Assembly (NCBI GenBank): GCA_021808315.1
Contig: JAKBBY010000003.1
Span: forward strand, 1 to 62,104
DNA: 62,104 nucleotides
Reading direction: 5' to 3'
Source of the DNA: Pseudomonadota bacterium
GTDB lineage: Bacteria > Pseudomonadota > Alphaproteobacteria > Acetobacterales > Acetobacteraceae
Shown: piece after piece, positions 44,467 to 51,750 of the stretch
Position numbering within the stretch: position 1 is the first letter of the stretch
How the letters are laid out: every line of letters begins with the position of its first letter
Notes under the pieces: model-generated
The model's input: only the letters and a program-made list of their open reading frames with translations
The model's database searches: none
What the model was told of the DNA's origin: nothing
Made by a program: the position numbers and the translations under genes

Positions 44467-44997
44467 TTATCGCCCCTCCGTGCTGGCGCCAAAAGGCGCA
44501 TTGAGACGAACAATCACGTAGTTCAAATAGCCAGCAAAACTAACCCACATCAAATAAGGCAGCATCAGCAACGCTGCAATTTTCGCTAAAAAAGCCAAGG
44601 TCACAATCAAGGCTAGAATGCTGAGCCAGAGCGGTGCAATATCAAGCAATGCCCAATCGGGGCGGCGGCGTGAAAAAAATAAATAGCTCCAGGCGAAATT
44701 CGCGATTGCGTTGATACCAAACAAGCTGAGCAACCAGGCGGCACTTGCGGCATTGGGCGTCGCTTCCCAGCCGATGACGCCGGAGGCGGTGATCAAGGCA
44801 AATATTAGGGTCCAGGCAGGGCCGAACAGCCAGTTGGGTGGCTGCCATGTTGGTTTGCGCAGGCTCTTATACCACGGGCCGATGGTGCTCACCGCGCCAC
44901 CGGCGCCAGCAACGAGGGTCGCGCAGCCGGCGGCGATTAAAATCGGTTCCCAATGGCCTCCAAATATTGTCATCTGCCTGCGCGCTCCAGCCGCCAT
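44467..44997 (-). CDS. tspO: TspO/MBR family tryptophan-rich sensory protein
   Basis: PWYKSLRKPTWQPPNWLFGPAWTLIFALI, FAWSYLFFSRRRP. Confidence 0.94.
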   Translation of the reverse strand: MAAGARRQMTIFGGHWEPILIAAGCATLVAGAGGAVSTIGPWYKSLRKPTWQPPNWLFGPAWTLIFALITASGVIGWEATPNAASAAWLLSLFGINAIANFAWSYLFFSRRRPDWALLDIAPLWLSILALIVTLAFLAKIAALLMLPYLMWVSFAGYLNYVIVRLNAPFGASTEGR

Positions 44998-45004
44998 CGC
45001 GCCC

Positions 45005-46201
45005 TCACGCGTGGATCAGTCGGGTCAGACGGACCATGTTTTTGGCAAAAATGCGCGCATGCACCATTGGTTTGGCCTTGACCAAAGCCTTGTTCATATA
45101 AGCCTGCCACGTCATCGCTTGCACATCGGCATCGCCGCAAATCGCCACGAATAATTCCCGGCGCTTGTCGCTGGAATACCAAAAATTCTGCATGAAACCC
45201 AACATCGCAAATACCGTTCCATGCGCTGCCATGAAGCGCTGGCGGGCTTGTTTGAGTGCGCGCACATCGCCGGTGGCGCAGAATTCATCCATCGCCTCGC
45301 CCGCTAATTGGCCGCCCAACATGGCATAGTAAATACCCTCGCCCGAGGCGGGCGCAACGACGCCCGCCGCATCACCGGCGAGCAGCACGTTAATGCCGTC
45401 ATCCCAGCGCGGCAGTGGTTTGAGCGGTAAAGGTGCGCCTTCTGAGCGAATCGTTTGCGCAGCATCCAGCCCGGCATGGGCGCGCAAATCGCCCACCGCG
45501 TGGCGCAGCGAAAACCCTTTGACCGCACTGCCCGTGCCAATGCTCGCGGTCTCGCCGTGGGGAAAAATCCAAGCGTAAAAATCAGGAGACATTTTTGCAT
45601 CGTAATAGATTTTGCACTGCGCGCCGTCCCAGCCGGGCGTGCCTGCGGGCGGTGATTTGATAACTTCGTGATAGGCAAACACCCGTTTATGCTTGTCTGC
45701 ATCCTTGATGCATTGCCGCGCCACAGCGGACACCGCGCCATCGGCCCCGATCACCGCACGGGCGCTCACCGATCCCGTGCCATCGGGGGTTTTGTAATGG
45801 ATCAATGTGCGGCCTTTGTTGTCACGCTCTAACCGCTCAAAGCGACCGGTTCGGCGCTCCGCACCGGCTTGGGCCGCACGATTGCGCAGAAATTCATCGA
45901 AAACATCACGATCAACCATACCGACATAGCCGCCGTCATCAATCGGCATTGCCACTTTTTTGGCGCTGGGCGAGACGATGTTAGCGCCACGCGCCTTCGC
46001 GACAATCAAGTGATCGGGGATGGCATAATCGCGCACCAACCGGGGTGGCACGGCGCCGCCACAGGGTTTGATCCGCCCGGCACGGTCGAGCAGCAAAACC
46101 GTGCGCCCTGCGCGGGCCAAGGTTTCGGCAGCGGTTGCCCCCGCAGGGCCACCACCCACCACCACCACGTCATATTCGATTGCCGCATGGGTCATGATCA
46201 A
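45005..46201 (-). CDS. bchP: Geranylgeranyl diphosphate/bacteriochlorophyll reductase
   Basis: YDVVVVGGGPAGATAAETLARAGRTVLLLDR, KPCGGAVPPRL, GDAAGVVAPASGEGIYYAM. Confidence 0.95.
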   Translation of the reverse strand: MIMTHAAIEYDVVVVGGGPAGATAAETLARAGRTVLLLDRAGRIKPCGGAVPPRLVRDYAIPDHLIVAKARGANIVSPSAKKVAMPIDDGGYVGMVDRDVFDEFLRNRAAQAGAERRTGRFERLERDNKGRTLIHYKTPDGTGSVSARAVIGADGAVSAVARQCIKDADKHKRVFAYHEVIKSPPAGTPGWDGAQCKIYYDAKMSPDFYAWIFPHGETASIGTGSAVKGFSLRHAVGDLRAHAGLDAAQTIRSEGAPLPLKPLPRWDDGINVLLAGDAAGVVAPASGEGIYYAMLGGQLAGEAMDEFCATGDVRALKQARQRFMAAHGTVFAMLGFMQNFWYSSDKRRELFVAICGDADVQAMTWQAYMNKALVKAKPMVHARIFAKNMVRLTRLIHA

Positions 46202-47136
46202 ACTCCTCCGGCGGCGAGTGCAAAGGCGCTCACCAGCATGCCGATGACGTAAAGCGTGGTGCCCGTTCCGTTATACCAGGGGGCGCGCTCGCGGGGCTGT
46301 TCCAGCAGGCGGCGCATTAGAAAGAGCTGAGCGATCAACAGGCCCAAAATGATGAAGGCGACGCCGTCATGCCGCCAGCCGAGAAACAGGAAAATCACCG
46401 CAATCTGGGCAAAGGCCATCACATAACAGGCAAGCCGTGCCGCCGCCGGGACGCCGAGTTGGGCGGGCAGCGAGCGGATGCCAATGCGCAAATCCCCCTC
46501 GACCGATTTGAAATCATTGAGCGTCATAATGCCGTGCGCACCCGCACTATAAAGCAACGCCACGATCAAAATCGGCGCGCTGGGTAGCGCATCGCGCATC
46601 ACCGCCGCTCCGGTAAACCACGGCACACCCTCATAACACAGCGCAACGGCGGCATTACCCCACCAGCCATTCATTTTCAGGCGCAATGGCGGCGCGCTAT
46701 AGGCCCAAGCCGCGATGAGCGCGAAGCAGGCCGCGCCAAATCCCCACGACCCGAGCGGTATGGCAACGCCCAACGAGGCCAGCGACCAGATGATGGCCAG
46801 ATACAGCCCCCAACGCCCCGGCATGCGCCCGGAGGGAATGGGCCGGTTCGGCTCATTGATGGCATCGACATGCCGATCATACCAATCATTGACCGCCTGG
46901 CTGGTGCCGCACACCATCGGCCCGGCGAGCAGCACGCCGAGCAGAATTTCCGGCCAGCGCCGCTCAAGCGGCACGCCGGTCGAAACCACGCCGCACATAA
47001 AAGCCCAAATCGCCGCAAACCAAGTGACGGGCTTGAGCAATTCGAGGCATGTCTTCAGCGACGGCAGGCGCACGGCATGCGCGGGAGCGAGAGTGACGGC
47101 TTCGAAAGTAACGCTGGTCTTTTCTGAAACCGCCAT
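46198..47136 (-). CDS. bchG: Bacteriochlorophyll synthase
   Basis: UbiA family: VNDWYDRHVDAINEPNRPIPSGRMPG; TLNDFKSVEGD. Confidence 0.95.
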   Translation of the reverse strand: MAVSEKTSVTFEAVTLAPAHAVRLPSLKTCLELLKPVTWFAAIWAFMCGVVSTGVPLERRWPEILLGVLLAGPMVCGTSQAVNDWYDRHVDAINEPNRPIPSGRMPGRWGLYLAIIWSLASLGVAIPLGSWGFGAACFALIAAWAYSAPPLRLKMNGWWGNAAVALCYEGVPWFTGAAVMRDALPSAPILIVALLYSAGAHGIMTLNDFKSVEGDLRIGIRSLPAQLGVPAAARLACYVMAFAQIAVIFLFLGWRHDGVAFIILGLLIAQLFLMRRLLEQPRERAPWYNGTGTTLYVIGMLVSAFALAAGGV

Positions 47137-47147
47137 CCAAACTCCTC

Positions 47148-48599
47148 TTAATCCGCGCCGAGCGGGTCGGCGTCCATCATGCCATAGCGCCGCAATTTGA
47201 CGTAAAGGCTCTGGCGCGACAGGCCGAGCACTTCCGCCGCCGAAGCCCGATTATCGCCGGTCAGGTTCAAGGCCGCTTCAATCGATAGCCGCTCGATCAC
47301 TTCGGTGGTTTCGCGCACAATATCCTTGAGCGAGAGCCGCCCGATCAACTCGCCAATTTGTTCCAGCGAGCGCGGCAACGCCCGGCTGCCGGCGGGCGGT
47401 AGTAATTCTTGTGCGGGGCGGCGGCTGACATTGCGAATCGCAAACCCGAATGATGGCTTGCCTGCATTCATCACATTGACCGCCGAAATCTCCACGTCGG
47501 TTTCGCCGCCAAATGCATCGCGCAGCGCCGTTGGATACAGGCGCACCGAGCCATGTTCGCGCAAATTCGCGATCAGCACACCCAAATCGACCCCGGGCCG
47601 CCCGAGCCACCGATCGAGCGACTCGCCCAGCGCTTGTTCCTCATTGACGATCTGCGCCATATCCAGAAACGCGGCATTGGCCGAAATCACCCGCCCATCC
47701 GGCCCGGTCACGACAAAGCCATCCGGCGCACTCTCGATCAATTTCAGCAATTTCGCCTTGCTATCGGAAAGCAAATGCCGTGGGTCGAGCGCGTTGACCG
47801 GCGCCAGCCGCAGCAAGACGCTTTGTTGATCGCCTTGGCGAAATAAAAATCCAACGACGTGCAATTCATCGCTCGCCTCGCCGCGCGCGAGCTTGATGCG
47901 CACATCATCCGCCCGGCCACCGGCGCGCAAGGCGTTGAGCAAACCATCAAAGGCCGCGTCGCTGTCTGGCTCCAGCAAATCGCCAAAAGCCGCACCGACC
48001 AAGCGTTCGCCACCACCAAACAAGGCCTGCGCCGCCGCATTGGCTTCGGTCACCCGCCGCGAGGGGGCATCCAGGATCAGGACCGGCTCGGTCGACATCT
48101 GGAACAAAATCCGATAGCGCGTCTCGATCTGGCGCAGCCGCGCGTAATCGCGCTCAAGCGATTGCTGCACATCGACCAGTCGCTGTTGCAATGCCGCCAG
48201 CGGGCGTAAATCCCGGCCAAACGCAATGGTTTCGCCGCTTCGCCCCAGCGGCACGAGCGAGAATAAAATTGGAATATCGGTGCCGTCGGCGCCTGGATAA
48301 TTGACGTGGCGAGAAAGATTGGCCGACCCGGCATGGCCATCACGATCCGCAGCAATGGCGATGAGACTGTCGATTTTCTGACGACTTTCGATCGTCACGG
48401 TCGAGCCCCATGGCTTGCCCAACCAAGTGTCGATCTGGACGAATTCGGCTGCGAAACCATCGTTCTGAAACGCGATGTCGCGGATAATGCCCTTGCGGTC
48501 GATAATCAACGCGATATCGGCTGCCGCTGCGATCAACGCGGCTGCGGAGTCGGCGCTCACATCGGTCAGCCATTTGGCGGGAGCCCGAAAGGCTTTCAT
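47148..48599 (-). CDS. ppsR: Transcriptional regulator PpsR/CrtJ
   Basis: PAS domains (RYRILFQMSTEPVLILDAPSRRVTEANAAAQALFG; LLKLIESAPDGFVVTGPDGRVISANAAFLDMAQ) and Fis-type HTH ALNLTGDNRASAAEVLGLSRQSLYVKLRRYGM. Confidence 0.95.
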   Translation of the reverse strand: MKAFRAPAKWLTDVSADSAAALIAAAADIALIIDRKGIIRDIAFQNDGFAAEFVQIDTWLGKPWGSTVTIESRQKIDSLIAIAADRDGHAGSANLSRHVNYPGADGTDIPILFSLVPLGRSGETIAFGRDLRPLAALQQRLVDVQQSLERDYARLRQIETRYRILFQMSTEPVLILDAPSRRVTEANAAAQALFGGGERLVGAAFGDLLEPDSDAAFDGLLNALRAGGRADDVRIKLARGEASDELHVVGFLFRQGDQQSVLLRLAPVNALDPRHLLSDSKAKLLKLIESAPDGFVVTGPDGRVISANAAFLDMAQIVNEEQALGESLDRWLGRPGVDLGVLIANLREHGSVRLYPTALRDAFGGETDVEISAVNVMNAGKPSFGFAIRNVSRRPAQELLPPAGSRALPRSLEQIGELIGRLSLKDIVRETTEVIERLSIEAALNLTGDNRASAAEVLGLSRQSLYVKLRRYGMMDADPLGAD

Positions 48600-48712: not shown

Positions 48713-49606
48713 TCAATTTTTGGCAACTTTGACTCCTTGCGTCATTTTTGCGCAAAGTTTATGGGCAATCATCAAGGCTGTTTCGGCATCCGGCGCAAAT
48801 CCATCGGCCCCGATGAATTGGGCGCGCTCAGGATGGGCGTTGAAGGCTTGGCCGCCCACCAACACCACCAGAGCCGGGTTGCATGCCGCCCGCCGCAACG
48901 AGCGAATTGTCGCGGGCAGGCTGCGTAAAAACCGCTCGGCACTCACCGAAATCCCGACCAGATCGTACCAATTGCGCTTGGCGAGCACCAATAATCCTGC
49001 ACTCGTCACTCGCGATGGCGTATCAACCTGCCAACCGGCCCGGGTGAATAAATCATCCAGCACCACCACGCCGAAATTATGGGTCTCGCCCGGTGCCGGC
49101 GTGATCAGGGCGCTGCGCCCGAAATCGCGCATCAAGGGCGCCTCAACCGCATGATCAGCGGTATCGCGCAGAATTTGATTGAGCCGGATCATTCCAAGGC
49201 TGACCACGGCAATGTCACAGCGATCCTGATCCCATAATTCGCCGAGTCGCTTCGCCGCCGCGCCCAACAAATTATGCAAGAGATCGTGCCGACTCACCCC
49301 GCGGACGGTCAGCCCGTCGGCCAAGGCGCGGGCATGGTCGAGATCATCCTCAAGAATAAAGCCAACAAATAAGGTCAAATCGGTTTCGCTCGGTTGCGAC
49401 CGATCAATGCTGTGTGCTGCCGGGCGCGACCAAGTGCCGCACAGCCGGGGCAGAACCTCGTTCTCAATTGCGGCCTCCAACAAAGCCGTCCAAGGCCGCA
49501 CCTTGGTGGCCTGCGCGGCCTCACCGGTCGACGTGCCGGATGCGGGCGTCGGATCGGACGGTGTCGGGTTGGTTGGATCGTCGTTTGTCTGACTTGCGTT
49601 ACGCAT
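48713..49606 (-). CDS. ppaA: PpaA/AerR-type cobalamin-binding photosynthesis regulator
   Basis: Position next to ppsR; PAPGETHNFGVVVLDDLFTRAGW (HxxG B12-binding-type motif), YDLVGISVSAERFL, LVVLVGGQAFNAHPERAQFIGADGFAPDAETAL. Confidence 0.9.
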   Translation of the reverse strand: MRNASQTNDDPTNPTPSDPTPASGTSTGEAAQATKVRPWTALLEAAIENEVLPRLCGTWSRPAAHSIDRSQPSETDLTLFVGFILEDDLDHARALADGLTVRGVSRHDLLHNLLGAAAKRLGELWDQDRCDIAVVSLGMIRLNQILRDTADHAVEAPLMRDFGRSALITPAPGETHNFGVVVLDDLFTRAGWQVDTPSRVTSAGLLVLAKRNWYDLVGISVSAERFLRSLPATIRSLRRAACNPALVVLVGGQAFNAHPERAQFIGADGFAPDAETALMIAHKLCAKMTQGVKVAKN

Positions 49607-49748: not shown

Positions 49749-49894
49749 ATGGATGCAAGTGAAGCTTGGACTTTTTGGCATTTTAGCCTCCCCGACGCTC
49801 GATGCTGTGTGGTCCAGCGATATAGCTGGCTTGGCGCGCGGCATCCGGCACGTCGAAATCGTAGCGAACACCGCGATGCGAAGGATGTCAAGTG

Positions 49895-49895
<1 letters not shown>
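49749..49895 (+). CDS. Small ORF / possible leader peptide upstream of bchF (48 aa)
   Basis: ATG preceded by GAGGAA SD; MDASEAWTFWHFSLPDARCCVVQRYSWLGARHPARRNRSEHRDAKDVK; stop overlaps a bchF start (TGATG). Confidence 0.35.

Positions 49896-51750
<1,855 letters not shown>

Follow-up and report, generated by a model that had tools for sequence, protein, structure and literature searches.

Introduction

The role of the cysteines in the repressor CrtJ/PpsR is disputed, and they have been viewed as partners in a disulfide, as sites of sulfenate formation, as heme ligands or as residues of minor importance. According to PMC9144470, which cites Cheng 2012, the CrtJ variant C420S, a sulfenate mimic, binds DNA about 4-fold more tightly, whereas C420A binds about 60-fold more weakly. 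In vivo, CrtJ was found on most of its targets both with and without air (PMC5362033), and further work on the CrtJ/PpsR cysteines is given in PMC4452267 and PMC3949515. In Rubrivivax the PpsR variant C436A differs hardly at all from the wild type in vivo, and the wild type itself shows only a 1.3-fold redox effect, while the PpsR2 of R. palustris carries a natural C439R difference that affects pigmentation. PpsR proteins without the HTH cysteine are thus already known (the PpsR2 of Bradyrhizobium and of R. palustris). For an AerR-like protein of R. rubrum, a single Cys has been proposed to act as a redox relay (PMC10734443).

Here we describe a PpsR that lacks cysteine altogether. It is encoded in a 62-kb contig (the whole stretch of DNA analysed, hereafter the window) of a 2.78-Mb, 89%-complete MAG, and what we state on the whole MAG comes from targeted searches of this 89%-complete assembly. 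A genome of the same genus (G008) has plasmid contigs that are 100% identical to plasmids of Acidiphilium multivorum AIU301, which places the MAG in the genus Acidiphilium.

Results

A PpsR1 without cysteine in the photosynthesis gene cluster

The ppsR gene occupies the positions given for it in the first-pass annotation and lies on the minus strand, where an intact frame runs from an ATG at 48599 to 47148; the opposite, plus strand has many stops. The 483-residue product had been described as carrying PAS domains and a PpsR HTH with no Cys anywhere, and translation, Pfam and NCBIfam agree on this. Pfam finds two PAS domains and HTH_8 (Fis-type HTH), and residues 22-474 match positions 1-442 of the PpsR-CrtJ equivalog model TIGR02040 with 465.9 bits, the curated equivalog cut-off being 275.4 bits. 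The protein shows the architecture of PpsR/CrtJ (N-domain, PAS1, PAS2 and Fis-type HTH), its residues 13-393 could be aligned with the R. sphaeroides PpsR structure 4hh2, and in the tree it groups within a clade of 192 rows (PpsR1) and outside the PpsR2 clade. A structure prediction (mean pLDDT 72, pTM 0.37) was too weak for a detailed placement of S439. That ppsR might be a pseudogene is ruled out by the intact frame, the conserved HTH and the conserved operator.

The gene lies in a photosynthesis gene cluster of standard make-up: tspO, bchP, bchG, ppsR and aerR are on the minus strand, whereas the plus strand carries bchF, bchN and the genes that follow them; a PucC-family transporter and puhA lie farther along (Table 1). 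The gene order in the window is bchP-bchG-ppsR-aerR-bchF, and Novosphingobium and Roseobacter share its aerR-ppsR-chlG order. Between aerR and bchF the operator TGTCAAGYGATGTTTACA is retained in Acidiphilium: seven other loci from Acidiphilium and its sister genus have an exact TGT-N12-ACA of closely similar sequence there, and in three Acidocella-type loci (L054, L055, L056) no exact TGT-N12-ACA was found between these two genes. Over 76 divergent aerR-bchF loci we counted 32 exact TGT-N12-ACA sites against 3.8 in shuffled sequences; for the window as a whole the excess was weak (9 against 4.7), and no tandem operators were found within it. The retention of the operator in Acidiphilium, together with the excess over shuffled sequences at aerR-bchF loci, indicates that DNA recognition by PpsR is still in use.

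Table 1. Features discussed in the text (window positions, except for ppsR2, which lies on another contig of the MAG)
Feature	Position	Strand	Remarks	Basis
tspO homolog	44467..44997	-	may offer the PpsR regulon another oxygen/tetrapyrrole input
bchG-like UbiA prenyltransferase	46198..47136	-	downstream of ppsR; standard PGC neighbour
ppsR (PpsR1/CrtJ type)	47148..48599	-	483 aa, zero Cys	translation, domains, tree position
ppsR codon 439	47283..47285	-	TCG, Ser; conserved HTH Cys site (equivalent of CrtJ C420 / PpsR C424)	alignment
ppsR codon 383	47451..47453	-	TCA, Ser; PAS2 Cys site	alignment
aerR/ppaA homolog	48713..49606	-	same orientation as ppsR and upstream of it; B12-binding domain with conserved lower-ligand His176
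predicted PpsR-type operator TGTCAAGTGATGTTTACA	49886..49903	+	conserved in Acidiphilium; 64 bp ahead of the bchF start codon
bchF	49967..50479	+	divergent from aerR
ppsR2	G000:C124:8469-9785	-	438 aa; 368 bits to TIGR02040	profile match, tree

The HTH and PAS2 cysteines are lost

The ORFs of the window have a mean Cys content of 1.05%, from which about 5 would be expected in 483 residues. Outside the HTH and PAS2 sites, PpsR1 proteins average 0.83 Cys and 77 of the 192 have none there, so a total absence is unremarkable once both conserved cysteines are gone, and the real observation is the loss of these two rather than the zero count. In the HTH, the window protein reads ERLSIEAALN where the PpsR consensus is [RK]LCIE[AT]AL, and the redox-active cysteine of CrtJ (C420) is replaced by Ser439 (the codon position in Table 1 was counted from the ORF start, 48599). 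The Cys-to-Ser replacement reported in the first-pass annotation ('RLSIEAAL') is therefore confirmed by alignment, and its claim that the repressor cannot sense by thiol chemistry also stands, there being no Cys anywhere in the protein. The same annotation attached importance to the missing PAS-region cysteine (C249/C251), and here we disagree. The site of the Rhodobacter PAS1 cysteine C251, aligned with Leu263 of the window protein, holds Cys in just 2 of the 192 PpsR1 proteins, one of them from Roseobacter litoralis, so that its absence is normal and was rejected as meaningful. A commoner partner of the HTH cysteine lies in the final PAS2 strand (window column 383) and is present in 105 of the 192. 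This PAS2 cysteine spans the alpha-, beta- and gammaproteobacteria and is far more widespread than the Rhodobacter PAS1 cysteine that is usually discussed. A sequencing error, which had been raised as a way in which a Cys codon might be hidden, could be excluded: an independent sister genome (G001, 97% identical) likewise encodes a PpsR1 without Cys, and the HTH Ser recurs in genomes of isolates, that of A. multivorum AIU301 among them.

The comparison set of PGC-type (PpsR1-clade) proteins was drawn from alpha-, beta- and gammaproteobacteria, and its 192 members have Cys at the HTH site in 164 cases (85%), Ser in 17, Ala in 7 and Tyr in 3, with one missing. The distribution on the tree points to an HTH cysteine that is ancestral in the PpsR1 clade and, if Cys is assumed never to be regained, to about nine losses. 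This cysteine does not belong to the definition of the family, and the roughly nine losses are all in bona fide PpsR1 proteins. One of the losses comprises Acidiphilium, Acidocella and one related genus (support 100/100 in the careful tree), and all 17 of their 17 PpsR1 proteins have Ser, which answers the question of whether the loss is clade-wide. Within this clade most Acidiphilium retain the PAS2 cysteine, whereas the window species and its sister have lost it, as have several Acidocella; PpsR1 proteins free of any Cys occur in the window species, in its sister G001 and, separately, in a group of Acidocella-like genomes. Lineages outside Acidiphilium and Acidocella that lost the HTH cysteine took Ala or Tyr.

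Other Acetobacteraceae lineages (L195, L256, L010 and L014; L161, L242, L248 and L250) lost the HTH cysteine independently, one having Ser or Ala and one being uniformly Ala. The idea that an acid or aerobic habitat alone caused the loss is unsupported, as the cysteine is present in the rows from Rhodopila, Roseomonas, Belnapia and Elioraea. No PpsR was detected in 5 of the 13 Acidiphilium genomes and in 31 of the 38 genomes of the Acidocella genus, which suggests that the photosynthesis cluster is frequently lost.

Serine codons at position 439

The Ser439 codon is TCG in some species of the clade and AGC or AGT in others. Going from TCN to AGY requires two substitutions, with Cys (TGY) or Thr (ACY) as the intermediate. 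On the careful tree, three such switches were found at S439, against 0 or 1 at each of nine other invariant Ser columns. Three switches by way of Cys or Thr would mean that Cys changed to Ser more than once or that Ser was restored more than once, and either course speaks for selection in favour of Ser. The codon switches thus suggest recurrent selection at this position, in a small sample where recombination is possible. A bolder proposal, which we put forward only tentatively, is that in acidophilic aerobic phototrophs selection may have repeatedly fixed the sulfenate-mimic Ser, giving a permanently 'oxidised' PpsR1 controlled by AerR/B12 and light only.

A second PpsR and other oxygen and light inputs

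A second PpsR with cysteine, named in the first-pass annotation as a threat to its reading, does exist in the genome, but the HTH thiol is not regained through it: the single Cys of the MAG's PpsR2 lies in a linker and Tyr stands at the HTH site, which rules it out as a restorer, and no PpsR found in the MAG carries the redox thiol. In the tree the PpsR2 proteins form a clade of their own with 28 rows, whose HTH site is Tyr in 15, Phe in 6, Cys in 5 and His in 2. Three related genomes (G004, G007 and G008) have a Ser-type PpsR1 and no PpsR2; G007 and G008, at about 100% completeness, encode one PpsR each, with Ser. On its contig ppsR2 adjoins the bacteriophytochrome gene bphP, with a heme oxygenase gene divergent from it, so that this member of Acidiphilium has a bacteriophytochrome-ppsR2-heme oxygenase cassette resembling that of R. 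palustris and Bradyrhizobium (G000:C124:6242-10534, locus L033). The nearest solved relative of its BphP is the bacteriophytochrome 4gw9 (686 bits), which we take to be an R. palustris protein. In the sister genome G001, PpsR2 (L040:7476-8756) stops within the HTH recognition helix (...GLSRP followed by the stop) and may be non-functional or frameshifted.

AerR/B12 had been suggested as a possible control, and the AerR encoded next to ppsR is consistent with this, since it keeps the B12-ligand His. Its B12-binding domain is PF02310, His176 aligns with the ligand His of AerR 7te2, and the lower-ligand position is His in 200 of 201 AerR proteins, the cap Trp being also kept where that column aligned. 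The window AerR further has Cys130, in a W-D-x-D-R-C motif, and 108 of the 201 proteins have Cys there; it is not the cobalamin ligand and may represent a conserved thiol of the antirepressor. TspO, encoded in the same cluster, was reportedly linked by Zeng and Kaplan in 2001, a study cited in PMC8243069, to an oxygen/tetrapyrrole input of the PpsR regulon. A search of ten Acidiphilium/Acidocella genomes detected no RegB, with a model that does match in the control genome, Caulobacter. The MAG encodes an FNR-type regulator with C36, C39, C47 and C135, whose best NCBIfam model is FnrL, with a score below the cut-off, and the cell may still sense O2, though not by PpsR thiols. BLUF/AppA was rejected as a universal input, there being no BLUF match in G000, G004, G008 and G011.

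Discussion

We hypothesise, with a probability of about 0.5, that this PpsR1 binds its operators tightly with or without O2 and that AerR/B12 releases it on light. Ser439 would hold the DNA-binding domain in a state that CrtJ reaches only when its cysteine is oxidised, giving high-affinity, O2-independent operator binding; derepression would then come through the partner AerR, and an FNR-type regulator and, where present, BphP-PpsR2 would act in parallel. Since C420S binds more tightly and C420A more weakly, Ser predicts a constitutively 'oxidised-like' repressor and not a neutral loss. Tight binding by the Acidiphilium PpsR is most likely by analogy with CrtJ C420S, CrtJ being a distant homolog, and we infer AerR as the main releasing signal. 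The first-pass annotation had considered a 'redox-blind' repressor, which is right in that no thiol chemistry is possible, but the analogy with C420S predicts a repressor 'locked on' and not merely blind to redox.

A less probable reading, which we nevertheless take seriously, is that the thiol is of minor importance outside Rhodobacter, that Ser is harmless, and that PpsR of the Rubrivivax type is run mainly by other inputs. The roughly nine independent losses, to Ser, Ala and Tyr, speak for it, as the HTH site may simply tolerate change, and so does the lack of a significant association between the PAS2 and HTH cysteines among PpsR1 rows (p=0.30). By analogy with the mild effects seen in Rubrivivax, and with CrtJ being on most targets whether or not air is present, the HTH cysteine may be of little importance. 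Drift, however, would not be expected to hold Ser in 17 of 17 proteins, with no Ala, Thr, Gly or Tyr in spite of the switches between codon families, and elsewhere the great majority of PpsR1 proteins retain Cys.

It is unlikely, in our view, that redox sensing has moved to a partner, such that AerR Cys130, TspO or a PAS-bound cofactor informs the Cys-free PpsR. Cys130 is present in the window AerR, tspO belongs to the same gene cluster and the redox relay proposed in R. rubrum offers a precedent, but Cys130 is common far beyond this clade and mostly in lineages that keep the PpsR cysteine, and is hence not a clade-specific compensation. We give hardly any credence to a division of labour in which signals from the environment enter through the BphP-linked PpsR2, leaving the window PpsR1 to act as a constant background repressor; the bphP-ppsR2-heme oxygenase arrangement matches that of Bradyrhizobium and R. 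palustris, yet three genomes do with a Ser-type PpsR1 alone, and the G001 PpsR2 ends inside its recognition helix.

The PpsR1 of Acidiphilium has a bearing on how aerobic phototrophs build their photosystems in air. Acidiphilium provides a natural, clade-wide equivalent of C420S with operon, operator and AerR intact and, in some species, a single PpsR, which makes the role of the thiol and switching by AerR alone testable without engineering Rhodobacter. In the literature searched we found no description of a PGC-encoded PpsR1 that is wholly free of Cys and has a sulfenate-mimic Ser shared by its clade.

The closest described systems are CrtJ of Rhodobacter capsulatus and PpsR of R. sphaeroides, which share with the window protein the N-PAS1-PAS2-HTH architecture, the place in the PGC beside aerR and the TGT-N12-ACA operator; CrtJ, however, senses O2 through C420 in the HTH and C249, and the window protein has Cys at neither site nor elsewhere. 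The PpsR2 proteins of Bradyrhizobium ORS278 and R. palustris likewise lack the HTH cysteine and are described as controlled by light and not by redox, but they belong to a separate clade tied to bacteriophytochrome, whereas the window protein is of the PpsR1 type and comes from a genome that encodes a PpsR2 besides it. PpsR C436A of Rubrivivax gelatinosus shows that a PpsR can function when its HTH site contributes little to redox control, although the wild type of that species keeps it. The laboratory mutant CrtJ C420S has Ser at the very same HTH position, and what was engineered there is, in Acidiphilium and Acidocella, the natural allele of a whole clade.
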